From assembly GCA_025350985.1 (NCBI GenBank), contig JANXWU010000129.1, positions 1-11,705 on the forward strand: a stretch of 11,705 nt of DNA, given 5' to 3'. Below, piece after piece: positions 1 through 11,614 of the stretch. Below the pieces are notes generated by a model. That model saw only the letters and a program-made list of their open reading frames with translations, had not been told where the DNA came from and did not search any database. The DNA comes from Spartobacteria bacterium. Its GTDB lineage: Bacteria > Verrucomicrobiota > Verrucomicrobiia > Chthoniobacterales > Chthoniobacteraceae. The position numbers and the translations under genes are program-made. How positions within the stretch are numbered: the first letter of the stretch is position 1; each line of letters begins with the position of its first letter.

Positions 1-3000
1 ACGGAATGGGCAGCGAAGGAGTAGAAGATCAACGGCACAGTAAACAGAATGGCGGCAAGGATTCCCGCCAAGGCTGCGTGCTTAAACAGTCGCTCCACCG
101 TGGACGGCGGGCCGGGCTTCCTATTCCCACCAATGAAGAAACCTGCTAGCGCGCGTGCAGTGGGAGCTAGCGCAACGAAGCCGGCGGCAAAGGCCGCGAA
201 GGCTTTGGTATAAGTCTGGTTTTTTGCCACGAGTTGCTGCAAGCCGTGACCAGCGGTGTCGATCAGGGCGAAGACCAAGGCACCCGCGCAAAGGCCCAGT
301 CCCAAGCCCAGGTCATAGGTTAGATGGTTGCGCGTGCGCAGTCGCTGCGTTTCCACGTCGCCCACGCCGACCGCGTCCTCCCTGCTTCGCCCCCGCCGCC
401 AGGCCATCTGCACCGCGACAAAGGATCCGAGCAACGACAGGGCTAGCGCCGTCGGTTCGATGGCGAGTCCGTCGCGCACCCCCAGATAAAGCAACACCGC
501 CGCAACTATCAAGACGACGGCCAGTGCCGGCGATTGGTAACGCTCGTGCTCATCCTGCGACACCATCCAATAGCCGACCATTCGCGGAACAACCAGAATC
601 AGCAGCAGCAGTTCAAAAAAGAGAAACCAAGGACTGAAGAAGGGTCCCAGCGCGGCTTCGAGCAAGTGTTCCAACGGAAAGTCAGAAGGGGTGAGACGGA
701 CGAAACCAAGTCCCGTGGTCGCCGGGTCGAGCAGCCAGTAACGCACCAGATTAGCGAGTCCGAAGATGGCAAAGACCAGCAGTCCCACGACAAAGTGGAC
801 GGTAAGCAGGTTGCGGAGAAACACGGCTACGTCGAGGCGGACATCGCCCGAACCGGAAGGTGCGATGTAGTTGCCGTGCTTGCGCAACCACTCAATCGCT
901 TTTGACTTGGGATTAGTTAGTTCCCTCTCGACCAAGTCCGGCGTGGAAGGCCGTTTGTCCTGTGCCAGCGGGGCTTCGCGGTAGCGATCAAAAAGCCGTC
1001 CTAGAAAGGCGCCGATGTAACCGCCACCGGAAACTGTGGAAAGGAAGTCAATCCGGCGCAGAGCCCGTCCTTGTGCCATCGCTTGCAGAATACCAAGCCC
1101 CAGGGTCGCACTGCGGACACCACCGCCGGAAAGAGCCAGTCCGGTCACGTCGTCGGACCAGTCCCCAGATGATTCTAGAACGGGCCTTGGCTCTTCCCCA
1201 ACCTTTGTGTCAGCGGCAAAAGTGGACACTTCAACCAAGGCGTGCGCCGCTGTGACGGGCTGGCCCCCTAGCTGCGCACGACGCAGCGTTAATGCCTCTG
1301 CCTCCTTCACCCGCAGCTCACGCGGATAAGTGGGCGAGTCGGGCCATGCAGTCATAACATCCGTGCCGCCATGCCCTGAGTCTTCGATCAATACTTCGGC
1401 GGCTTTCTCGCTGGCCATGTAAATGTTGGTGACAATGAAGTAACCCGGAATCTTCGGAAAGATCGACGCGTCCACGACGCGCAAGCCAGCCACTCCCCGG
1501 ACGCGAAAGCGTGAATCGAGCACGGCGTTTTCATCGTCTTCAGGTCCCATGCGGCAGGTGCCGCAGGCATGATGTCCCCACGCCGCGCGACGAATCCAAT
1601 CCTTCAGCCGCCCGTCGTTTTCCTCCGGCACTTCGGCCAGCCCCGGATAGGTCTCTCCTTTAACTATAACTTTCGCGTGGCGCGCGATGCCACGCACAAA
1701 CTTAACCCCTTCCACCAGGGCCTGAAGGTCGGGGTCTTCCGCGCTCTGACCCGGTTTGGAGCTTTCGTTGAAGTAATGAAAGTTGATCAACGGCGTGTCC
1801 AGCGGATCGATGCTGCGCAGCCGCACCGTGCCGTCGTGATTGCGAGTCTGACCTTTAAGGATCGCCCAGGTAAAAAAGTTGTGCTGGTCGCCAACCTTCG
1901 AGTAATCGACCTTGTAACCCTCGAAAGGCAGCGGCACCCCAAACATAAACAAATCAGGCTGCGCCAGCTTTGACCAAGTCCGATTAAACAAAATGCTGCG
2001 GGTAAGCAAACCCCATAAGCCGCGAATCGAACGCAGTTCGGCAATGCTGCGGGAACGCCAGAAGATACCAAGGACGGAACCGTTGCTGGTATAAAGACCT
2101 TGTCCTTGCTCCCGCCAGTTTTCCAGCGCGCCATCCGGTTGATTGGCTGGAACGGGAAGCTTGAAGGTCGCGTCATGGAGCAGCGAGAACTCTTCCTTCA
2201 TCTCACTGATGACCGTGACTTCGTAACGGTCTTGCAAATTCAGGCCGACACTGGGCGAGGCAATGCGCTGCGCTTTACCGGCGGCGTTCAAGAGCGGCTT
2301 GCTCTCACGGTTCCAGAGCACGCAGGCAGGCTTGCCGTCCTTTTGGTCAAACTCCTTCAAGTGCGCGGGACAACCGATGCCGGAGAGCATTAACAACTGC
2401 GGCGTATTGAAAGCTCCGCCACAAAGGACGACTTCTCCTTTGCCGGAACTGACGAAGACCCTTTGCGCCGTGCCTGTTGAGGTTTCCGGTTGCGGATGCG
2501 CGCGGTAGAGCTTTTTGCCTTTCAAATACTCCACACCTACGGCTCTCGGTTGTTTGGCATTGTCCGAGTCCTTTGGGCCATCGAATAAGATTTTAGTAAC
2601 CAGGCAATCCGTCCAGATTGTGAGGTTTTCAGGATGGCTGGCCTTTACCTCCAGCAATAGCTCACGGGGGCTGGAGCGGCGGCCGCCTTGCACCAATGGG
2701 GTGGCGGAGTTCTGATGGATCGTGGTCTTGCTTCCGCACACGGCCAGGGGCACCAAGACCACGCCTTCAGGATGTTCGGCCTGAGTGCGAGAGTGATTGG
2801 GATCGAGCGTTTCCAAGATCGTCCCGCGCAAGAACCGCGACACCAGAGTCCAGGCGCGATCAATGCCGGCGAGCTTGGCCTGCCAGAGCGCAGCCTTAAG
2901 CATCTTCACGATCTGAGGGTCGTGAAGACCGAGGGAGATGTCCGCAGTGCTGGTGTGCAGCCAGCCGTCGCGGCCGTGGCGTCCGCCGTCGTAGTCCGGC

Positions 3001-3599
3001 GCGCGCAGTCCCAGCCAGTTAAGATCGAAGAGCCAGCGCAAGTTATGCCAAAAGGACCTAGGGGTTGACTCAGGAATAGCATCCGGTTCGCGAAGGTATT
3101 CGTTGCGTTCCAGCCGCTCGAAATGATCCCGCATACGCTTGCCCCGCCACGACTCGTCGCCGAGAAAGTCGGCTAGGTCGTCCCAGTCGGCGTCGGGTCC
3201 GGCGATGGTGATCATGGCATTATGCACGGTGCAGCCACCGAGCGCCGCCGCCCGTGGATAGAAGATCCCGGCGTGGGTTTCGTTCTCGCCCTTGGTCTTG
3301 TCAGGTGAATGCCACTTGGCATCCTGACCAGTGGGCGGCTGATCGTAGTGTTTGACAAAGAATCGCCAGCTTAGGTCTGGATGCTCGGTCGAAACGGCGT
3401 GCAGCGCCGGAACCTGACTGACTTCACGCGCCGGGTCAGTCGCCGGAGCGTCCGCGTGGTTCGACCCCGCCTCGATGACCAACACTTTAAATCCCGCCAG
3501 CGCGAGCCGCGCTGCCAGCGGTCCGCCGCCTGCTCCCGAACCCACGATGATGTAGTCAAAGAGTTGCTCAGCACTGCCGGAGTTGGATGCGGAAGTCAT
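1..3599 (-). CDS. GMC oxidoreductase fused to a membrane patatin-like phospholipase (3' end outside window)
   Basis: One uninterrupted frame runs from ATG at 3599 off the left edge (1199 full codons). Residues 1-740 are a GMC-family FAD oxidoreductase: the dinucleotide-binding GSGAGG at 20-25 with the acidic end of beta-2 at E43-A-G, the GMC signature YPRAAALGGCTVHNA at 114-128, and the C-terminal active-site block WGHHACGTCRMG at 674-685, with N725 as probable partner of the catalytic His. After a ~75-residue linker a patatin domain begins: oxyanion motif SGGGVR at 824-829 and nucleophile block STVSGGG at 854-860 (probable Ser857). About seven hydrophobic segments follow from ~928 to the edge. 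The patatin catalytic Asp/Glu would lie beyond the window. There is no signal peptide, so the GMC part is predicted to be cytoplasmic. The gene lies 50 bases downstream of the dihaem cytochrome gene, same strand. No Shine-Dalgarno is evident. An internal ATG at 1355 (codon 749) could start a separate patatin polypeptide. Family assignments are firm; the substrate is unknown. Confidence 0.9.
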   Translation of the reverse strand, partial: MTSASNSGSAEQLFDYIIVGSGAGGGPLAARLALAGFKVLVIEAGSNHADAPATDPAREVSQVPALHAVSTEHPDLSWRFFVKHYDQPPTGQDAKWHSPDKTKGENETHAGIFYPRAAALGGCTVHNAMITIAGPDADWDDLADFLGDESWRGKRMRDHFERLERNEYLREPDAIPESTPRSFWHNLRWLFDLNWLGLRAPDYDGGRHGRDGWLHTSTADISLGLHDPQIVKMLKAALWQAKLAGIDRAWTLVSRFLRGTILETLDPNHSRTQAEHPEGVVLVPLAVCGSKTTIHQNSATPLVQGGRRSSPRELLLEVKASHPENLTIWTDCLVTKILFDGPKDSDNAKQPRAVGVEYLKGKKLYRAHPQPETSTGTAQRVFVSSGKGEVVLCGGAFNTPQLLMLSGIGCPAHLKEFDQKDGKPACVLWNRESKPLLNAAGKAQRIASPSVGLNLQDRYEVTVISEMKEEFSLLHDATFKLPVPANQPDGALENWREQGQGLYTSNGSVLGIFWRSRSIAELRSIRGLWGLLTRSILFNRTWSKLAQPDLFMFGVPLPFEGYKVDYSKVGDQHNFFTWAILKGQTRNHDGTVRLRSIDPLDTPLINFHYFNESSKPGQSAEDPDLQALVEGVKFVRGIARHAKVIVKGETYPGLAEVPEENDGRLKDWIRRAAWGHHACGTCRMGPEDDENAVLDSRFRVRGVAGLRVVDASIFPKIPGYFIVTNIYMASEKAAEVLIEDSGHGGTDVMTAWPDSPTYPRELRVKEAEALTLRRAQLGGQPVTAAHALVEVSTFAADTKVGEEPRPVLESSGDWSDDVTGLALSGGGVRSATLGLGILQAMAQGRALRRIDFLSTVSGGGYIGAFLGRLFDRYREAPLAQDKRPSTPDLVERELTNPKSKAIEWLRKHGNYIAPSGSGDVRLDVAVFLRNLLTVHFVVGLLVFAIFGLANLVRYWLLDPATTGLGFVRLTPSDFPLEHLLEAALGPFFSPWFLFFELLLLILVVPRMVGYWMVSQDEHERYQSPALAVVLIVAAVLLYLGVRDGLAIEPTALALSLLGSFVAVQMAWRRGRSREDAVGVGDVETQRLRTRNHLTYDLGLGLGLCAGALVFALIDTAGHGLQQLVAKNQTYTKAFAAFAAGFVALAPTARALAGFFIGGNRKPGPPSTVERLFKHAALAGILAAILFTVPLIFYSFAAHS

Positions 3600-3649: not shown

Positions 3650-6600
3650 TTAGAATGTTTTGAGCAGTTCAATCAGCGCGTCCTTGTCCGCGTCACTCAT
3701 GGTCTTAAACCATCCAAAGTAATGGCCGTGATCCATCACGAAATCCGGGCATTTGCTGACCTTCATCAAGCGGGGTGCAATCTGCTCCTTAAGCACCTTC
3801 TGCGCGGCGGCTTCGTCGAGATGCTGTGACTCAATCTCTGCCAGCTTGCCCAGGACAAAGGCGACGGTTTTGGGCAGGTCTTTCGCGTCCGGGTTGAGGT
3901 TGGCTAATAGGTTCACCGGTGTTCCTTTCGGAATCGGTCCAATGCGCACATTGCCGAGGCTGCCATTGACCAGATACAAAAGAATACCCAGAAACAAAGC
4001 CAGGATAATGGAAAGGTAACCCAGCCAGCGCGCCAGCCCTCGGGAAGGTATGAGGGTAAAGAACAAGAACGCTAGGACAAAGAGCACAGCACTCGGCTTC
4101 CACAGCGGATGAATCCGGCCCAGCCGGGGATACTTCATCTTCAGGTTCACGATCTTGCTAAGACTAGGAAGCTTGGAGAGAATCTGTGGCACATGGCCGC
4201 CGGGAAGATCCAGATAAGTGACTTCGGTCGTTCGCCAGATCAAGCCATGATCCCGCTTGAGTCGTTCTGGCGTGGCTTCGTTATAACTGGAACTTTCCCG
4301 GCGCTTCGCCGGCCAGAGCAACTTGCGGATGGAGTCGTCGAACGACAAAAGCCGCCCCTCGACCGATGGGTCGTTGTTAAACAAACCCAAGCTGTTGTTG
4401 TGCAAGAAAGGAGCCGTCGCCCACACGGAAATCAAGGAAGCAGGGCGATAGAAGCCCGGGCCGCCGCCGCCCTCCGGTATTGGCGGCTGACCCGCTGGCG
4501 TTCGGACTTTGTGCCGGGGGTAGAACTGGTCGGCCCCTCCATCCTTGCCCAGATAAGGATTAAAAAAGTCGATCGCTCCGACATTCGGCAGCCGCCGATA
4601 GCTTTCCGAGCTATAGTCCTGCCACATATTACCCGTCATGCCATTGGTCGCCATAGCCCGGCCTGCATTCGTGCGGATGATATTGATTGGGATGCGGTAA
4701 TCAGTGGAGAGATAGTTACCCTGCCAGAACTTCGGTTGTTTGATCACCGCGAGCGCCCAAGCCTGGTAGTCCGGGTCACTAAGCCATTGACCGGGGTCGT
4801 GATCCCAGAACTCGCCAGCTTTCGCCCACTCCGCGAGTTTGTCTTTGCGCTTAGTCGCTATCCGGTCGAATTGCGTCTGCTCGAGCGGCACGCCGGCTTC
4901 AGGCTTCTTTCCATCGACGGGCGGCAGTGTTGTCGCAAGAGATGCGGCGCCGATACTCTCCGGCTGGATACTGGAATGGCAGACGATGCAGTTCTTCGCG
5001 AAGACCTGACGGCCCTGCGCGAGCTTGGAAACATCGACTCGTTGGGCGCGCTCGGCAGCGAGGAGTGTTTTCAAATCGGCATGTTCAATTTCCGATTTGG
5101 CCTTGAGCGCCGCTTCGTCAACCGGGGCGTTTCGATCGATAGTCTTGAGACTGCCGCCATTGTCTGCGGCGGCTGACAAGGGCATGGGCGGCGTGATTTT
5201 CAGAAAGTAATCGCGCAAGGGCCCCACCCGGCGTTCGGTGGCGTGCCAATAGACCGAGTGTGCCTTGGAGTCGTCAATTTTGAAAGGTGACTGCGGTTTG
5301 AAACCAATGAGCGGCTCATGCAAGGTAATCCATTGCTCGTAATAGGAGCCGATGTTGAGAAAGACGCGCGCGAGCGCCACCCACGCGCCCACGGAATCCG
5401 CGCCATCAAGCAGGACGCGCGGCACGAAGCGCGGATTGTCATTAGAAGCCGGCAGATTCTTAATCAAGTCAAGGTAAGCCTTGGGCGCTTCGACGACAGG
5501 ATCATACCAAAGCGAAGGCCGGCTGGCGCTGACGGGAGACAGTTGCTCCTGCGGAAGTTCAAACGAGCGGACGACCCGTTGTGGCACGCCAAAGACCGCA
5601 TTCATGGCATTGGCATTGTTGATATTGTCCGACGCGATCAAGGAGGTGTCGATCGTGCCCGCCACCTGGCTTTCGAGCAGGTGATAGACAAAGTTATCCT
5701 TGCGCAGCAAGTTTCCGAAGACCATGCCGACGCGGAGATATTGCGCGCCAATGTTGCCGGAGAGGTTGGCCCATTGCGGGTTGACGATGTCGCGCGGCGG
5801 ACTCAGTGGGTGGAAGGAAGCGTGGCAAAAGGCACAGCTCATGCCTACGCGGAAAGGTCGGATCAGGCTGGGATTATTGTAATAGGACGGGTCATTGTAG
5901 AAGCGGACCGGGTCCCACTTTTTCTGTGCTTCCTTGCTCTCGATGAACTTTGGATTCGGAAACAAGCGCAGACCGATCACGCCGCTGGAAAGGCCGTAGA
6001 TTTTCGGCGGAGGCAGGTTTAGGTCATAAGCTTTCCCGGTTAACTCATCTGCATAAGTGTCCCCGCTTCCTGCCATTGGTTTATCGGCATAGGAACCCGG
6101 CAGGGCTTGGCTGGCAGCGTAGCTTTTAGGAACCGCCACCTCTGCCGGTGAGCTAAAGGCCTTCTTCAAGTAATCGTCACGCCACTGCCTTCGCCCCTCA
6201 TCGGCTGGCGCGTCGAGTCGTAGTCCGAAGTCGGACGGCCCCGGAGTGGCGGTCTGCTTCATATTAGGCTCATTGATTAGTCCCACATCCCGAAACCGAG
6301 TCGAGCGATGGCTGCTGTCGATAACCTTTAAGAGATCGGTGAAGCCGAGGCTGTTATTCGCCAGCCAATCCCAAAAGCCCTCATTGCCCGCGCACCACAT
6401 CATCCAAGTATTGCGGCCCAGGATTTCGCTTTCGCGCAGTTTTTTATAACGATCATCCGCAAGCTGTGGGTCGAGCTTTTCGTCCTGCGTCAGCAAGTCC
6501 GCTACCTTAGCCGGTCCATAAGATGGCTGCCGATCGCGCAACTGATCGGGCCACACTTCATCGGCCGGATTCGGTCCGCCTGCCGGCAAGGCCACGCGGT

Positions 6601-6802
6601 CCATCCCGGCAAAGTAGTTGTCCACCTGGCGCGGGGTGAAATCGAGCGCCGCCTGCTCCGCCGTCCGACCCTGCTTGCGAGCGATGACCATGGCTTCGTC
6701 ATCTTGAGCGCCACGGCTGCTGGCGGTCCGGCGGTGACAGCCAGATGAAAGCAAGCTAAGCGCGGCGAAAACAATGAACGGAAAGGCCGGAAATCGTGGC
6801 AT
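3650..6802 (-). CDS. RoxA-like dihaem c-type cytochrome, predicted lipoprotein with C-terminal membrane hairpin
   Basis: Predicted 1050-residue exported haem protein. The start at 6802 is preferred over the in-frame ATG at 6949 because it begins directly with a lipoprotein signal peptide (hydrophobic residues ~7-18, then LSSG-C with Cys22). Two c-type haem motifs are present: CAFCH at 323-327 and CIVCH at 605-609. The block WATAPFLHNNS at 794-804 is typical of the dihaem peroxidase/MauG/RoxA group, and the end (SKCPDF, then DADKDALIELLKTF) resembles the end of RoxA-like proteins. An aromatic-rich stretch, WMMWCAGNEGFWDW, lies near 133-146. Two hydrophobic helices (~904-923 and ~926-947) interrupt the C-terminal part; both flanks would then be periplasmic, as the lipid anchor requires. 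Known relatives include rubber oxygenases that cleave polyisoprene with O2, and peroxidases; which chemistry applies here cannot be told. The protein is longer than RoxA (~70 kDa), with a wider spacing between haem motifs. The neighbouring GMC-patatin gene suggests a shared pathway. No Shine-Dalgarno precedes the start. Confidence 0.85.
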   Translation of the reverse strand: MPRFPAFPFIVFAALSLLSSGCHRRTASSRGAQDDEAMVIARKQGRTAEQAALDFTPRQVDNYFAGMDRVALPAGGPNPADEVWPDQLRDRQPSYGPAKVADLLTQDEKLDPQLADDRYKKLRESEILGRNTWMMWCAGNEGFWDWLANNSLGFTDLLKVIDSSHRSTRFRDVGLINEPNMKQTATPGPSDFGLRLDAPADEGRRQWRDDYLKKAFSSPAEVAVPKSYAASQALPGSYADKPMAGSGDTYADELTGKAYDLNLPPPKIYGLSSGVIGLRLFPNPKFIESKEAQKKWDPVRFYNDPSYYNNPSLIRPFRVGMSCAFCHASFHPLSPPRDIVNPQWANLSGNIGAQYLRVGMVFGNLLRKDNFVYHLLESQVAGTIDTSLIASDNINNANAMNAVFGVPQRVVRSFELPQEQLSPVSASRPSLWYDPVVEAPKAYLDLIKNLPASNDNPRFVPRVLLDGADSVGAWVALARVFLNIGSYYEQWITLHEPLIGFKPQSPFKIDDSKAHSVYWHATERRVGPLRDYFLKITPPMPLSAAADNGGSLKTIDRNAPVDEAALKAKSEIEHADLKTLLAAERAQRVDVSKLAQGRQVFAKNCIVCHSSIQPESIGAASLATTLPPVDGKKPEAGVPLEQTQFDRIATKRKDKLAEWAKAGEFWDHDPGQWLSDPDYQAWALAVIKQPKFWQGNYLSTDYRIPINIIRTNAGRAMATNGMTGNMWQDYSSESYRRLPNVGAIDFFNPYLGKDGGADQFYPRHKVRTPAGQPPIPEGGGGPGFYRPASLISVWATAPFLHNNSLGLFNNDPSVEGRLLSFDDSIRKLLWPAKRRESSSYNEATPERLKRDHGLIWRTTEVTYLDLPGGHVPQILSKLPSLSKIVNLKMKYPRLGRIHPLWKPSAVLFVLAFLFFTLIPSRGLARWLGYLSIILALFLGILLYLVNGSLGNVRIGPIPKGTPVNLLANLNPDAKDLPKTVAFVLGKLAEIESQHLDEAAAQKVLKEQIAPRLMKVSKCPDFVMDHGHYFGWFKTMSDADKDALIELLKTF

Positions 6803-6970
6803 AGGATAAACGAGTGGAAAACCGGGTGCAGGCAACGAGGCGTTGCGACCTGCTTGAATTAGGGAATCGCGGAGAAATCCGCAATAGGTGGTTGCACCCA
6901 TGCGCCGTGAGTTCAATCGCCGCTGGTATTTCCGGTCACCAAAGTTCATGACACGCTACGGTGACTTAAA
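6803..6970. promoter_or_regulatory. Divergent intergenic region with nested inverted repeats
   Basis: This 168-base stretch separates the divergent cytochrome and TPR genes and must hold both promoters; no convincing -35/-10 pair was found. It contains GGGTGCA (6824-6830) pairing with TGCACCC (6893-6899), enclosing two smaller hairpins. One is GCAGG-CAACG-AGG-CGTTG-CGA-CCTGC (6828-6853), a 10-bp stem with a 3-base bulge. The other is GCGGA-GAAA-TCCGC (6869-6882). Read on the minus strand this would be a branched leader of the cytochrome mRNA. GCA at 6828-6830 is shared by the outer and one inner stem, so the two compete there. If translation instead starts at 6949, the region is coding on the minus strand and the repeats may be coincidental. 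Confidence 0.4.
6960..6964 (+). promoter_or_regulatory. Possible ribosome binding site of the TPR gene
   Basis: GGTGA lies six bases before the GTG at 6971. It matches the 3' part of the extended Shine-Dalgarno consensus AGGAGGTGA and supports the GTG start. It is the only start in the window with a visible site of this kind. Confidence 0.45.
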
Positions 6971-8206
6971 GTGTCGGGACCAATTCAAACCTTGGAAACA
7001 ACGAACCACTTCTCAACGCGGGCGCGCGTGACATTCCTGCTTCTCGCCGCCGGAATTCTCGCCAGCGGGGGCTTCGCTTGGTTCATCACTTCGCACGACG
7101 CCGCTTTTTGGAACCAATCCGCCGATCGACAACTGCGCCTCCTCGCCACCACCGGCGATCTTGCGCATCTCGGCAAAGCCAGAAACGCCATCACGCATTC
7201 GCTCGCGGCGGAGTCCGCTTCCACCAACCGCGCCGGGCTCATCCTGCGCGCCCGCGCAGCTTTGGCGGCGCATCGTTTCGAGGAGGCGAGGTGCGACGCC
7301 GGACGTGTGCGGGCTCTGGTTCCCGGAAACTCACTCGCGCTCCGTTATCTCGGAGATGCGTGGTTCAACTTGGGAGACTACAACGAGGCCGCGCAAGTTT
7401 GGAACGAGCTACTCGCCGTCGAGAAAAGCAGCCTCGTGACCGAGCCGCGCCTGGCTCAACTCGACTTGATCTTTGGCCGGGACGAGAGCGCGCGGCAGCG
7501 GCTGGAAGCGGGATTGAAGGCCGCCCGAAGGCTAACGCCGCCCGCGCCGGAAATCGTCGCCTGGTTTTGCGTGCAGGTGGGTGAGCTGGCGTTTAAATCA
7601 GGAGACTGGGACACAGCCGGGACTCACTACGACGCTGCGCTCGCCGCGCAGCCGGACTATTATTCCGCCCTTGACCACCAAGCCGAACTGCGCGGCGCGC
7701 AAGGCCGCTACTCGGAAGCCGTGGAGCTTTACACCCGGTTGATCCGGCGTTGCCCTCGACCGGAATTCATGCAGGCGCGTGGCGATTTGCACGCTTTTGC
7801 GGGCCAGCCCGACGCAGCCCGCCGGTGGCACAAAATGGCGCGCGAGGCTTACCTTGCCTCTGTCGATCAAGGTGAAATCGTTTACTTTCATCACCTCGCC
7901 GGCTTTTTCGCCGCCTCCGTGGAAGAACCACAACAAGCGGTGGAATGGGCGCGGCGCGATTTTGCGCTGCGCCACGGAATCACCGCCTGCGACGCGCTGG
8001 CGTGGGCTTTGCACAAGGCCGGTCATCTCGCAGAGGCCCGCGCGATGAGCGAGCGCGCGCTCGCGACCGGCACGCGCGACCCGCATCTGCTTTACCACGC
8101 TGCAATGATCCGCATGGCGGCGGGCGACATCGCGGGTGGCGCGGCGCTGACCCAGCAAGCCCTCGAGGCGAATCCGCGTTATTTCGGTTTCCACGTTCAC
8201 CGCTAG
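6971..8206 (+). CDS. Membrane-anchored tetratricopeptide-repeat protein
   Basis: 411-residue protein starting at GTG, with GGTGA six bases upstream. A single hydrophobic segment at about residues 20-40 (TFLLLAAGILASGGFAWFIT) is a signal anchor, which should leave the rest outside the cytoplasm. The remainder is alpha-helical with TPR-like pairs: around 118-150 (SLALRYLGDAWFNLGDYNEA), 200-232 (VGELAFKSGDWDTAGTHYDA), 233-262 (HQAELRGAQGRYSEAVELYT), 265-293, 340-367 (LAWALHKAGHLAEARAMSER) and 374-405. TPRs bind other proteins; no enzymatic motif is visible. The divergent neighbour is the dihaem cytochrome and the next gene on the same strand encodes a secreted protein, so it may act as a scaffold for envelope proteins; this is inference. 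Codon third positions look richer in G/C than in the following gene. Confidence 0.85.
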   Translation: MSGPIQTLETTNHFSTRARVTFLLLAAGILASGGFAWFITSHDAAFWNQSADRQLRLLATTGDLAHLGKARNAITHSLAAESASTNRAGLILRARAALAAHRFEEARCDAGRVRALVPGNSLALRYLGDAWFNLGDYNEAAQVWNELLAVEKSSLVTEPRLAQLDLIFGRDESARQRLEAGLKAARRLTPPAPEIVAWFCVQVGELAFKSGDWDTAGTHYDAALAAQPDYYSALDHQAELRGAQGRYSEAVELYTRLIRRCPRPEFMQARGDLHAFAGQPDAARRWHKMAREAYLASVDQGEIVYFHHLAGFFAASVEEPQQAVEWARRDFALRHGITACDALAWALHKAGHLAEARAMSERALATGTRDPHLLYHAAMIRMAAGDIAGGAALTQQALEANPRYFGFHVHR

Positions 8207-8243
8207 GCTTCGCAAAAATCGGAGCACAGCACTGTTACTCACA

Positions 8244-8273
8244 CTACCCGGAATGACTGGCGTTGGCGGGTAG
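8244..8273. repeat. Inverted repeat upstream of the secreted-protein gene
   Basis: CTACCCG (8244-8250) and CGGGTAG (8267-8273) are perfect 7-bp inverted arms around a 16-base spacer, in the 142-base gap between the TPR gene and the next gene. There is no T run after it, so it is not a standard intrinsic terminator. It could be an operator or a chance repeat. Confidence 0.3.
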
Positions 8274-8292
8274 GTATGAATAGTTGTAAATG
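8263..8292 (+). promoter_or_regulatory. Weak candidate sigma70-type promoter
   Basis: TTGGCG (8263-8268) and TAAATG (8287-8292) are 18 bases apart, about 57 bases before the preferred start of the secreted-protein gene. The match to TTGACA/TATAAT is partial and the -35 overlaps the right arm of the inverted repeat at 8244-8273. Low confidence. Confidence 0.2.
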
Positions 8293-8348
8293 CTCGCCAT
8301 GACACGTTTCCTCCCACTCCTTCAATGGCGGCGATGCCGCGAACACTA

Positions 8349-9980
8349 ATGAAACACCTCGTATTTTTTCTCGCCGTCCTAACCCTCCTTCGCCCAAGCG
8401 CGGCCCCTGCCGCCGAAGTTCAGAAAGCCGAAATGGCGGGCTATCTATTAGTCTCGTCGGATAAAGTTTCCGAGGAATACAACGCTGGCTTTTCGCTCTA
8501 TGCCGCTGCCTGGCCGTTGCTGCAACAGTATCCGGGGCATCGCTTCCAGACCGGACTTTTCGGCACTTGGATGCACGCGCAGTATCAGGGCAAGCCACCG
8601 GCAGACCTTTACTCTGACATCGAAGGCGGACTAGGCTGGTGGCGCGACACCCGCTTCCCGACGGAGACGCCAAAGTTCATCATGGGCGGGGTGGCGGTGA
8701 ATTTCAAAGAGATCGCCAATGGTCCCGCGCACGGTCGTGGCACTTGGGACAAGCCCCAAGGCCTCTATGGGGTCGCGCAACTAAGCCCGTGGCTGCTCTT
8801 CCCCATCGATGGATTGAACTTAAAGCAGGGAACCTGCGGGGAGCTATTCGGTTATGGGTATCTGCCGCTGCCGTTGACAGCCGCCAAGGCAACCACCGGT
8901 GGCAAGAAGGTTGCGACCGGCGACAATTCTTGGACGCTGTTCCTCAACACAGGGAACTTCAAAGGACCGGTCTGTTTCTTCACGCCATACTTCTGGTCAC
9001 ACTCCGCAGAGCTGAACCCGGACTTGGCAGGCCTGTTACTGGACTCGAGACCTTCGGCTCCGAACAAACCTTTTCAAATGGAGACTCAGTATGTGCCGGG
9101 CGCGCTCTCCAAGGACGAGAAGGGGGAGACTTACGCGCGCGTCGCGCCGACTTCTTTCCCAGTAGGATCGGATGGCAACACGGTTATCCTGCATCGCCTC
9201 ACGTCCTATAATCGCAAAGCTCTCTGGGATGGCGTGAAAGCATGGTTCGAGGGTGGTCCGGTTGTCAGTGGAGCAATTAGTTCCGACGGCTCCCATGTGC
9301 AGACTTTGCGAGCCGGCGGCGGCTCGACATGGAGGATTTACGCGGAGAAAACTCCCAAGGAACAAAAGGTTGCAATGGCGTGGGGTTCGTTCGCCACGGC
9401 GATCGCACCTGATCCTACGACTTATGGCTATAAGTGGAATGAGCAGTTAGTTAGAAAGGTGAAAGACGCGAACGGGGCCCGCGTGGTGCTCCCGGAATAC
9501 TTTCATCTACAGAACAACGGAAAGAAGGACCAGTGGGTTGCGGTCAAACCAGCCGAGATACCGGCTGGATTAGGATTGGACGCGTGGCGTTTTGATCGAC
9601 CAAAGGAGAAAGCGTCCGAACCTTATGACACACCCGAAGCTCCCGATAGCTCCTTTAAGAGGCCAGGTCCAGTCGCCGGGCCTTGCAAGACGCGTCTGGG
9701 TGACGGCAGTGTGGTGACTTACTATTGGTATCGCTTTGCCGATCAGCCGGCATTGCTCAATGCCGACCTGACCAAGGAGGAGCGCGAGAAAATGCAGGTG
9801 AAGGTGGAGAAGCTGCACCGGACTTGGACAAAGAATCGCGATTACCTAGCGCCGCCCACCGTCGGCAAACTCGCCGACTTGGATCAAGCTCAGCTCGTGA
9901 CTCCTCCCAAGGGACTGGAGATCGGCTATGTCCCAATTGCCACGCGACAAGAGTTGGAACCTTCTCGTCCCATCAAATAA
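8349..9980 (+). CDS. Secreted protein of unrecognised family
   Basis: 543 residues from the preferred ATG at 8349, where the protein opens with a textbook Sec signal peptide: Lys2, hydrophobic core ~3-14, then PSAAPAA with cleavage near residue 21-22. In-frame ATGs at 8325 and 8334 would add 8 or 5 residues before it; none has a clear Shine-Dalgarno. The mature part is rich in aromatic residues and glycine (for example GGLGWWRDTRF, TPYFWSH, VTYYWYRFADQP) and has only three cysteines, none in a CxxCH haem motif. I recognise no domain or catalytic motif. A charged helical stretch (LTKEEREKMQVKVEKLHRTW) lies near the C-terminus. It sits 142 bases after the TPR gene on the same strand, so the two may be co-expressed. 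It is a probable periplasmic or surface protein; function unknown. The coding call is strong because of length, signal peptide and lack of a competing frame. Confidence 0.8.
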   Translation: MKHLVFFLAVLTLLRPSAAPAAEVQKAEMAGYLLVSSDKVSEEYNAGFSLYAAAWPLLQQYPGHRFQTGLFGTWMHAQYQGKPPADLYSDIEGGLGWWRDTRFPTETPKFIMGGVAVNFKEIANGPAHGRGTWDKPQGLYGVAQLSPWLLFPIDGLNLKQGTCGELFGYGYLPLPLTAAKATTGGKKVATGDNSWTLFLNTGNFKGPVCFFTPYFWSHSAELNPDLAGLLLDSRPSAPNKPFQMETQYVPGALSKDEKGETYARVAPTSFPVGSDGNTVILHRLTSYNRKALWDGVKAWFEGGPVVSGAISSDGSHVQTLRAGGGSTWRIYAEKTPKEQKVAMAWGSFATAIAPDPTTYGYKWNEQLVRKVKDANGARVVLPEYFHLQNNGKKDQWVAVKPAEIPAGLGLDAWRFDRPKEKASEPYDTPEAPDSSFKRPGPVAGPCKTRLGDGSVVTYYWYRFADQPALLNADLTKEEREKMQVKVEKLHRTWTKNRDYLAPPTVGKLADLDQAQLVTPPKGLEIGYVPIATRQELEPSRPIK

Positions 9981-9997
9981 CCGAGTTGGATCCGCTG

Positions 9998-11134
9998 CTA
10001 TTCAAGGCTTCCGTAAACGGCCTTAACCAGCGAGAGCGCCCGGTCGCTTGGCAAAACTTCGATGTCCATCTGATTCATCGTGTAGGCGAAGGCCACGCGA
10101 TTTTCCGGATCGGCAAAGGCGAGGCTGCCCCCGGAACCAGGATGCCCAAACGCGCGTGCCGAAGGTCCGAAGAGCGCGCGTCGCTTTGTGCCATCCGCTG
10201 AAACGGGGTCTTGCATAAATCCAGCGGAAAATGCCGTCTCGACTGCGAGCACTTTGTCCTCGCCGCTGGTCAGGGTCGTGGTCATCCACGAGATCGCCTG
10301 CGGCGAAAAAAAGCGGACGCCGTCGAGTTTGCCGCCGTTGGCCAGCAACGCATAAAACTTCGTCAGCCCCGCCGCCGTCGCGATGCCGCCGAACGCCGGG
10401 AACGACGCCCTGCGTGCCTCGCGGGTGTTCATGCCGGGGATGCCGCCGATTCCTTTGGCCGGAAAAAATGCCCGCGCGGTGAGCGAAGCCGGATCGCCCC
10501 AACCCCGAAAAAACGGGGTGTCGGGGAGCTTCGGCGCGCGTGGAGGAAAAATCGGCGCGACGCTTTCCAGCAATCCCTCGGGCACGCCGAACCACGCCTG
10601 GATTGCGAGCGGTTCGGCGAAGGTGCGCCGCCAGTATTCGCCAAGCGTCAACCCCGCGAGACGGCGGACGAGTTCATCGGCCAAAAAACCGAACGTGCGC
10701 GGGTGATAACCGTGTCCCGAACCCGGTCGCCAAAGCGGGGTCTGCGCCGCCAGCCACTCGACCACCCGTTCATGATCGAAGACCGAAACGTCCGGCGGCA
10801 AGAGCGGCAACCCGGCTTGGTGCGAGAGCAATTGCCCGACGGTGACACCGTCCTTTTCGCCCTGCGCAAACGCCGGCCAGATTTCCGCGACGGACGTTTC
10901 CAGCGGCAGTGCACGTTGATCCAAGCAATGCAGAACACACGCGGCGGCGAGCCCTTTACCCACCGACCAGACGAGCACCGGCGTGTATGGCGTCCAGGGT
11001 TTTGTTCTTTCGCGGTCGCAAAAACCGTCCGCCAAGTTTGCGACTACCTCGCCTTCCTGCCACACCGAAACGGAGGCACCCCATTCGCCGCGCCGCGAAA
11101 AGTTTTCCTCGAAAACCTGAGTCAGCCGGGTCAA
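9998..11134 (-). CDS. Beta-lactamase-fold serine hydrolase (class C / family VIII esterase-like)
   Basis: 378-residue protein of the serine beta-lactamase/penicillin-binding-protein-like superfamily. The nucleophile motif SxxK is S57-V-G-K60, followed by LLSHQAGLP at 102-110, a hallmark of this group. Y143 in GYHPRTFG is the likely catalytic tyrosine, in place of the usual YxN. H331-P-G333 (GHPGSGGS) stands where true beta-lactamases have KTG, which fits esterases or peptidases better than a resistance enzyme. No signal peptide is seen, so it is probably cytoplasmic. It starts with TTG immediately after the gcvH stop codon, with no other good start nearby, so translation is probably coupled to gcvH. 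Its stop is 17 bases from the stop of the convergent secreted-protein gene. The substrate is unknown; a link to glycine metabolism is not implied. Confidence 0.88.
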   Translation of the reverse strand: MTRLTQVFEENFSRRGEWGASVSVWQEGEVVANLADGFCDRERTKPWTPYTPVLVWSVGKGLAAACVLHCLDQRALPLETSVAEIWPAFAQGEKDGVTVGQLLSHQAGLPLLPPDVSVFDHERVVEWLAAQTPLWRPGSGHGYHPRTFGFLADELVRRLAGLTLGEYWRRTFAEPLAIQAWFGVPEGLLESVAPIFPPRAPKLPDTPFFRGWGDPASLTARAFFPAKGIGGIPGMNTREARRASFPAFGGIATAAGLTKFYALLANGGKLDGVRFFSPQAISWMTTTLTSGEDKVLAVETAFSAGFMQDPVSADGTKRRALFGPSARAFGHPGSGGSLAFADPENRVAFAYTMNQMDIEVLPSDRALSLVKAVYGSLE

Positions 11135-11533
11135 CTAAACGTCGTATTTTCCGCTGGCTGAAATTTGCGCGCGATATTCGGCCGCCGTTTTCAGCGTTTC
11201 AATTTCCTCGCCCGCTTCGACCGCCAACCGGAACAGCCAGCCCTCGCCAAACGGATCGCGATTGAGCAACCCCGGATCAATGCCGAGCGCTTCGTTTACT
11301 TCCGTGATCGTGCCGCTGACGGGCGCGTAAATATCGCTCGCGGCTTTGACCGATTCGACCACGGCGATGGGCTTGCCCGCCTGCGTCTGCGCGCCGACTT
11401 TCGGGAGTTCGACAAAGACGATGTCGGTCAACTCTGCCTGCGCGTGGTCGGTGATGCCGACGCGGGCATTCGCGCCCTCGAGGAGGAGCCACTCGTGCGA
11501 GGTCGTGTATTTGCGATCTTCGGGGACGTTCAT
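11135..11533 (-). CDS. gcvH: Glycine cleavage system H protein
   Basis: 132-residue lipoyl carrier of the glycine cleavage complex; it shuttles the aminomethyl group from GcvP to GcvT and is reoxidised by the L protein. The family opening is clear (DRKYTTSHEW at 6-15, then VGITDHAQAELTDIVFVELP), and the lipoylated lysine is K63 in VVESVKAASDIYAP. Length is normal for the family. The ATG at 11533 is chosen because it begins next to the conserved core; an in-frame GTG at 11602 would add 23 residues of low-complexity, non-family sequence. The gene lies downstream of gcvT on the same strand, and its TAG is directly followed by the TTG start of the serine hydrolase. Confidence 0.96.
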   Translation of the reverse strand: MNVPEDRKYTTSHEWLLLEGANARVGITDHAQAELTDIVFVELPKVGAQTQAGKPIAVVESVKAASDIYAPVSGTITEVNEALGIDPGLLNRDPFGEGWLFRLAVEAGEEIETLKTAAEYRAQISASGKYDV

Positions 11534-11614
11534 GAGATTAGGGCGTTGAAATTCGCGCTGGGGAAGGCCGTCGGACGGAGGAGGACCATTGAGTAAATCC
11601 ACCGGGAAGTCCAG

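Follow-up and report, generated by a model that had tools for sequence, protein, structure and literature searches.

An open reading frame at one edge of a Spartobacteria bacterium contig raises two questions: is a GMC flavin oxidoreductase really made as one polypeptide with a membrane lipase, and what would such a protein do? The window, the whole 11,705-nucleotide stretch of DNA that was analyzed, is all of contig C154 of a draft genome (542 contigs, 88.2% complete, 3.32% contamination). Its features are listed in Table 1.

Gene layout and assembly

The fusion frame starts with an ATG at 3599 on the minus strand, stays open through base 3 (1199 codons), and then leaves the contig. Because the window is the entire contig, the gene is truncated by the contig end and not by a stop. 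Its remainder lies on contig C19 (bases 3-1643; L038 3-1643) and has 546 codons, ending at a stop. The first 82 of these codons match residues 1118-1199 of the window frame at 95% (237/250 bases in the DNA), and the 13 base differences in the overlap (window 1-250) fall in 13 codons, nine silent and four replacement. The two pieces, compared as unjoined contigs, are therefore one and the same gene of about 1663 codons. The break in the assembly probably arose from strain variants.

Table 1. Features of the window, with coordinates and the basis of each assignment
Feature	Coordinates	Strand	Basis
GMC flavin oxidoreductase domain, residues 1-741	1377..3599	-	Pfam; 18-sequence alignment; GSGAGG 20-25, active-site HH 676-677
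In-frame junction with the N-terminal part of the lipase half (residues 742-820)	1140..1376	-	Translation, conserved residues
cPLA2/patatin-like catalytic domain, first half, residues 821-930	810..1139	-	GGGVR oxyanion at 825, Ser857 in TVSGGG; fold via P. soli homologue
Membrane module, residues 931-1199, seven predicted helices between catalytic Ser and Asp	3..809	-	Hydropathy, alignment
Di-heme RoxA/cytochrome c peroxidase-like gene, upstream of fusion gene	3650..6949	-	Pfam, NCBIfam, alignment
TPR-repeat gene, divergent	6971..8206	+	Pfam; relatives near cassette in L039 and L040
Exported-looking protein, 551 aa	8325..9980	+	Neither Pfam nor NCBIfam gave a match at E 0.1
Serine beta-lactamase-fold protein, probably an esterase	9998..11134	-	PF00144, 2.8e-53; closest NCBIfam model is esterase LipL (160 bits; cut-off 650)
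Glycine cleavage H protein, ordinary	11135..11602	-

Fusion of the flavoenzyme and lipase halves

Three Pfam domains lie in this single frame: GMC_oxred_N (E 1.1e-18; 68.3 bits against a cut-off of 23), GMC_oxred_C (residues 588-729, E 5.3e-30; 105.2 bits against 24.6), and Patatin PF01734 (residues 821-868, E 2.8e-6), the last at 28.1 bits for the window, barely above its cut-off of 27.7. The original prediction had read an in-frame fusion from the strings GSGAGG, YPRAAALGG, HHACGTCRM, and SEKAAEVLIED. Every one of these is present in the translation, and a scan of the junction (residues 740-820) found no stop. G+C content is lowest at codon position 2 throughout the frame, as a single frame predicts, with a weaker contrast at residues 751-900.

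The halves are not always separate genes in relatives, as the same fusion reads in frame through the junction in nine full-length proteins. These are encoded in Paludisphaera soli JC670 (L002, 1589 aa), on plasmids of Mesorhizobium onobrychidis (L047, 1562 aa, annotated merely as a GMC oxidoreductase) and Rhizobium sp. CCGE532 (L050, 1537 aa), and at L039 (1671 aa), L040 (1661 aa), L041 (1642 aa), L045 (1734 aa), L046 (1595 aa), and L068 (1714 aa). A second Rhizobium record (H3) looks similar to the fused record. Three loci (L042, L043, and L044) instead encode the halves in two neighboring genes, ordered as in the fusion; in L043 the two ORFs overlap by 17 bases. An assembly or sequencing artefact that joined two genes might be suspected, because the draft is fragmented and the gene is split between contigs with 13 mismatches in their 250-base overlap. 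The same fusion at nine further loci, a named strain and a complete plasmid among them, rules this out and leaves it virtually no probability.

Unfused GMC relatives without a lipase of this family are 597-664 aa long (n = 6: L003, L004, L006, L007, L048, and L049), the GMC proteins of the three split pairs 646-855 aa, and unfused lipases 804-1020 aa (n = 10). Thirteen lipases, whether fused, split, or stand-alone, all keep a P, an E, and an RR of the junction stretch (residues 742-820). Two longer frames were set aside: a 2635-aa frame in G308 is two ORFs (1714 and 884 aa) sharing a phase, for which no longer fusion is claimed, and a 1386-aa GMC frame in G1412 is no fusion, its phase staying open across the upstream di-heme gene.

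Distribution and evolution

Among 96 genomes besides its own, five carry the fusion (G029, G052, G064, G066, and G085) and three carry the split pair (G009, G059, and G067). Four wider phylum samples give lower bounds, at most two candidate stretches having been scored per genome: the fusion is in at least one of 386 other genomes of its own phylum (G308), and at that depth it was found in 0/293 other genomes of the P. soli phylum, 0/398 genomes of the Nitrosomonas phylum, and 0/247 genomes of the phylum of the Acidobacteriaceae genome.

Trees of the GMC and lipase halves agree in their main clades. One clade holds the window protein (placed in the GMC tree only), L002, L039, and L040; the other holds L041, L045, L046, L047, L050, and L068, with the split pairs L043 and L044 at its base. 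The split pair L042 falls outside both, and its placement is weak in the lipase tree. These trees would fit either a single early fusion that later split or two fusions. Presence of the fusion in several phyla yet few genomes suggests horizontal spread.

Flavin domain

GMC oxidoreductases, including choline oxidase, choline dehydrogenase, and fatty acid photodecarboxylase, share with this protein the GMC_oxred_N and GMC_oxred_C domains, the GxGxxG motif, and the HxxGT His, and by these features the protein belongs to the GMC superfamily. The FAD motif is present as GSGAGG, with G20, G22, G24, and G25 invariant in 18/18 aligned GMC rows. The active-site His (H677) is equally invariant and aligns with the HPVGT of choline oxidase. 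In contrast, the second active-site position, canonically Asn or His, is Phe (F721) in all 18 rows, and the lipase is fused C-terminally. F721 faces an Asn of choline dehydrogenase 9lq0 that is presumably catalytic. By this second residue the protein is not a canonical GMC alcohol oxidase or dehydrogenase. A lipase coupled to oxidation of an alcohol or sterol had been proposed for this gene; the coupling is supported by nine fused proteins, three adjacent split pairs, and concordant trees, but the proposed oxidation is hypothetical, and the usual Asn/His is Phe.

The nearest solved relatives of the domain are choline dehydrogenase (E 2.4e-57) and fatty acid photodecarboxylase (E 4.4e-56). A lipase fused to a photodecarboxylase could produce hydrocarbons, and the closeness to that structure favors this, but choline dehydrogenase scores equally well and the photodecarboxylase active-site residues Cys432 and Arg451 are not conserved. 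The Cys is aligned to Ala in the profile and to Ser in the window, and the Arg falls in an insertion relative to the profile; a Cys/Ser pair of the photodecarboxylase chain sequences is visible in the alignment. Photodecarboxylase identity was rejected because Cys and Arg are not kept in the alignment, and a hydrocarbon-producing fusion is very improbable.

Inspection and hydropathy revealed no apparent signal peptide in the window protein or its nine fused relatives. The unfused Methylobacter GMC protein (L003) has a Tat-like leader by eye.

Lipase half and membrane module

In humans, group IV cPLA2 releases fatty acids for lipid signaling. The model of the P. soli homologue (mean pLDDT 66; weak Foldseek E-values, best 4.5e-3) predicts a cPLA2/patatin fold that resembles group IV cPLA2 more than patatin. 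Neither the P. soli protein nor the C19 piece has a Patatin Pfam match at E 0.1. A Ser-Asp dyad and a GGGx(R/K) oxyanion motif are present across the gene's own two pieces and 17 other family rows; the 18th row of the lipase alignment, L048, is a different patatin family. The nucleophile motif is T-V-S-G-G in the window, with T, S, or P two before the Ser in the family rows, and the strict GxSxG motif is in none of them. Because that motif is absent, we use the label cPLA2-like and do not assign the protein as a canonical patatin or cPLA2 member.

The window part has seven hydrophobic segments, in agreement with the roughly seven membrane helices first predicted, and an eighth lies on C19 with the catalytic Asp. 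The module is thus inserted between Ser and Asp, and a simple C-terminal membrane anchor was rejected for this reason. Hydropathy gave 7 to 9 membrane helices across the family, odd numbers included. Compared with group IV cPLA2 and patatins, this family differs in these predicted inserted helices, in T/S/P-x-S-G/C/S-G in place of G-x-S-x-G, and in the fused flavoenzyme. Of the membrane-bound patatin-like lipase in the original prediction, membrane association is retained, but the predicted fold is nearer group IV cPLA2 and the helices form an insert. Sequence and structure prediction together show one polypeptide of about 1540-1730 residues, with an N-terminal GMC flavoprotein and a predicted cPLA2-like serine acyl hydrolase that carries a 7-9-helix insert.

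Di-heme partner

A large di-heme gene lies directly upstream in 10/10 fused loci. The window protein has a lipoprotein-like signal by inspection, its CXXCH motifs are at residues 372 and 654, and two helices are predicted after heme 2; two CXXCH motifs are present in 16/16 aligned rows. PA2077 and PA2078 are described, in PMC4496055 and PMC5155153, as periplasmic, RoxA-related di-heme Ccp-type enzymes of fatty-acid oxygenation. With RoxA and these enzymes the family shares two CXXCH motifs, a size larger than ordinary Ccp, and an export signal by inspection. It differs in greater length (714-1272 aa), in helices after heme 2 in most cassette members, and in the weakness of the match: 21.2 bits against a cut-off of 26.7 for the Pfam RoxA-like family, 42 against 150 for the NCBIfam di-heme Ccp model, and E 0.0014 over 25 positions for the profile against RoxA structure 4b2n. 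Across the second heme site, the profile fits cytochromes c and cbb3 CcoP as well.

Di-heme genes are found in 12/97 genomes, nine of which have GMC and lipase genes, two the lipase only (G065 and G096), and one neither nearby (G091). Beside GMC plus lipase, 12/13 di-heme proteins have 2-5 predicted helices after heme 2, a count that leaves out L044, whose di-heme genes are broken or cut. The helix-less exception is the second, shorter di-heme gene of L043 (3965-6175), directly 3' of the lipase gene. Helices after heme 2 are absent from the proteins beside GMC alone (L004, L007, and L049), beside lipase alone (L090 and L091), and in L092, and the L094 protein has two although its contig is without GMC and lipase genes. 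The lipase and di-heme pairs of L090 (5269-10149) and L091 (5503-10502) have no GMC gene of this family within the 15-kb stretch.

These neighborhoods bear on whether the cassette is an electron-transfer module, in which a flavin dehydrogenase passes electrons to a di-heme carrier or peroxidase and the lipase supplies or remodels a lipid-soluble substrate. In Nitrosomonas (L004 and L007), Sinorhizobium (L049), and G1412, a GMC gene adjoins a di-heme gene and the stretch fetched has no such lipase, which makes flavin plus di-heme the apparent core unit; the profile's fit to cytochromes c and CcoP is in line with electron transfer. However, the flavin domain looks cytoplasmic and the hemes periplasmic, L090 and L091 pair lipase with di-heme, and the catalase-fold protein is left unexplained. 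We regard an electron-transfer role as rather unlikely.

Catalase-fold and DUF4331-like partners

Within the fetched stretches, 8/10 fused loci have a linked DUF4331-like gene (23.6 bits; cut-off 27) and 7/10 have a linked catalase-fold gene. Six of 97 genomes, the window's own among them, have the catalase-fold gene, and each also carries the GMC, lipase, and di-heme genes, although in G009 it is some 140 kb away. It is absent from G052, G059, and G067, which carry the other three genes. At L041 (13038-15719), L045 (13276-16062), and L068 (12627-15281) the DUF4331-like and catalase-fold parts are joined via three predicted helices, which makes a second fusion inside the same cassette. The open-access literature search returned no paper for DUF4331.

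The catalase-fold protein has a predicted catalase beta-barrel (low-confidence model, pLDDT 58), no Pfam match at E 0.1, and no RxxxY, the catalase proximal-ligand motif, in its body; in this genome's own protein the sole RxxxY is at residue 29 near the N-terminus. H102 is invariant in 7/7 sequences, and we take it for the distal His of the predicted fold. The catalase-related 33-kDa mycobacterial protein 3e4y shares the predicted barrel and the invariant His, whereas the missing body RxxxY, the missing Pfam match, and the fusion to DUF4331-like in three loci set this family apart from catalase-related proteins. The coral allene oxide synthase type is also a catalase-related protein. PMC5617202 describes catalase-related enzymes as processing hydroperoxides.

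The di-heme and catalase-fold partners are related to peroxide-handling families, as expected if the cassette repaired lipid peroxides. In that scheme the lipase would excise peroxidized acyl chains, and their hydroperoxides would be reduced by the Ccp-like and catalase-fold proteins. Phospholipases excise oxidized acyl chains in other systems, which also favors repair. The flavin domain has no place in such a scheme, however, and the rare, patchy distribution is unlike general stress repair. Repair is accordingly quite improbable.

TPR and HupE/UreJ-like genes flank the L094 di-heme gene (5104-10468) and lie upstream of the cassette in L040 (1181-3564), hinting at a wider gene set. Seventeen neighboring proteins, among them AMP-binding, MFS, amidohydrolase, DUF1295, and HupE/UreJ proteins, gave no consistent clue to a substrate.

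A possible membrane lipid-oxidation module

We tentatively favor, at somewhat under even chances, a membrane module that cuts and oxidizes membrane lipids in a manner like oxylipin (eicosanoid) formation. The analogy is drawn from the PA2077/PA2078 di-heme enzymes and from the catalase-related hydroperoxide-processing enzymes. The helix module would anchor the hydrolase in the inner membrane, and eight helices would place both catalytic halves and the flavin domain in the cytoplasm. From membrane lipid, the hydrolase would release acyl chains or some other lipid held by an ester bond. On the periplasmic side the di-heme protein may oxygenate the lipid or reduce a lipid peroxide, with RoxA and PA2077-type enzymes, which act on hydrophobic substrates, as the model for this step; its membrane helices could mean contact with the same complex. 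Later redox steps on the product would fall to the catalase-fold and flavin domains, and the fusion would hold lipase and flavoenzyme at 1:1. The more specific proposal of a horizontally spread oxylipin-type machine, analogous to eicosanoid synthesis and made of the helix-bearing cPLA2-like lipase fused to a flavoenzyme, a di-heme oxygenase, and a catalase-fold enzyme, is unlikely.

The chief weaknesses of the lipid-oxidation reading are the Phe at the GMC Asn/His position and the need for the same molecule to cross the membrane, since the flavin and lipase parts look cytoplasmic and the di-heme and DUF4331-like proteins look exported. The di-heme protein is also only a weak RoxA match, and the catalase-fold protein, with its low-confidence model, has no RxxxY in its body. 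Furthermore, some fused loci yielded no catalase-fold or DUF4331-like gene, and the link between di-heme helices and lipase is imperfect (no helices in the second copy of L043, two in L094).

The Calothrix plasmid pCAL6303.01 (L048 3741-11665) carries heme peroxidase-family, transposase, GMC, and different patatin genes. The GMC gene overlaps the patatin gene by 4 bases, and the animal-heme-peroxidase-family gene is upstream, beyond the transposase gene. This locus was dropped as a split relative because its patatin belongs to another family. It is an independent flavoenzyme-lipase pairing that lends single-locus support to lipid oxidation.

Novelty and significance

All cassette parts belong to known superfamilies. 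Among the matches listed in the open-access literature (titles and abstract beginnings), none described a lipase that is fused to a flavoenzyme and carries a membrane module inside its catalytic domain. The full-length version in Paludisphaera soli strain JC670 makes a test practical. If the lipid-oxidation reading is true, the cassette would offer a bacterial system in which to test cutting and oxidation of membrane lipids by one complex, and it would give a role to families annotated in plasmid records just as GMC oxidoreductase or hypothetical protein.
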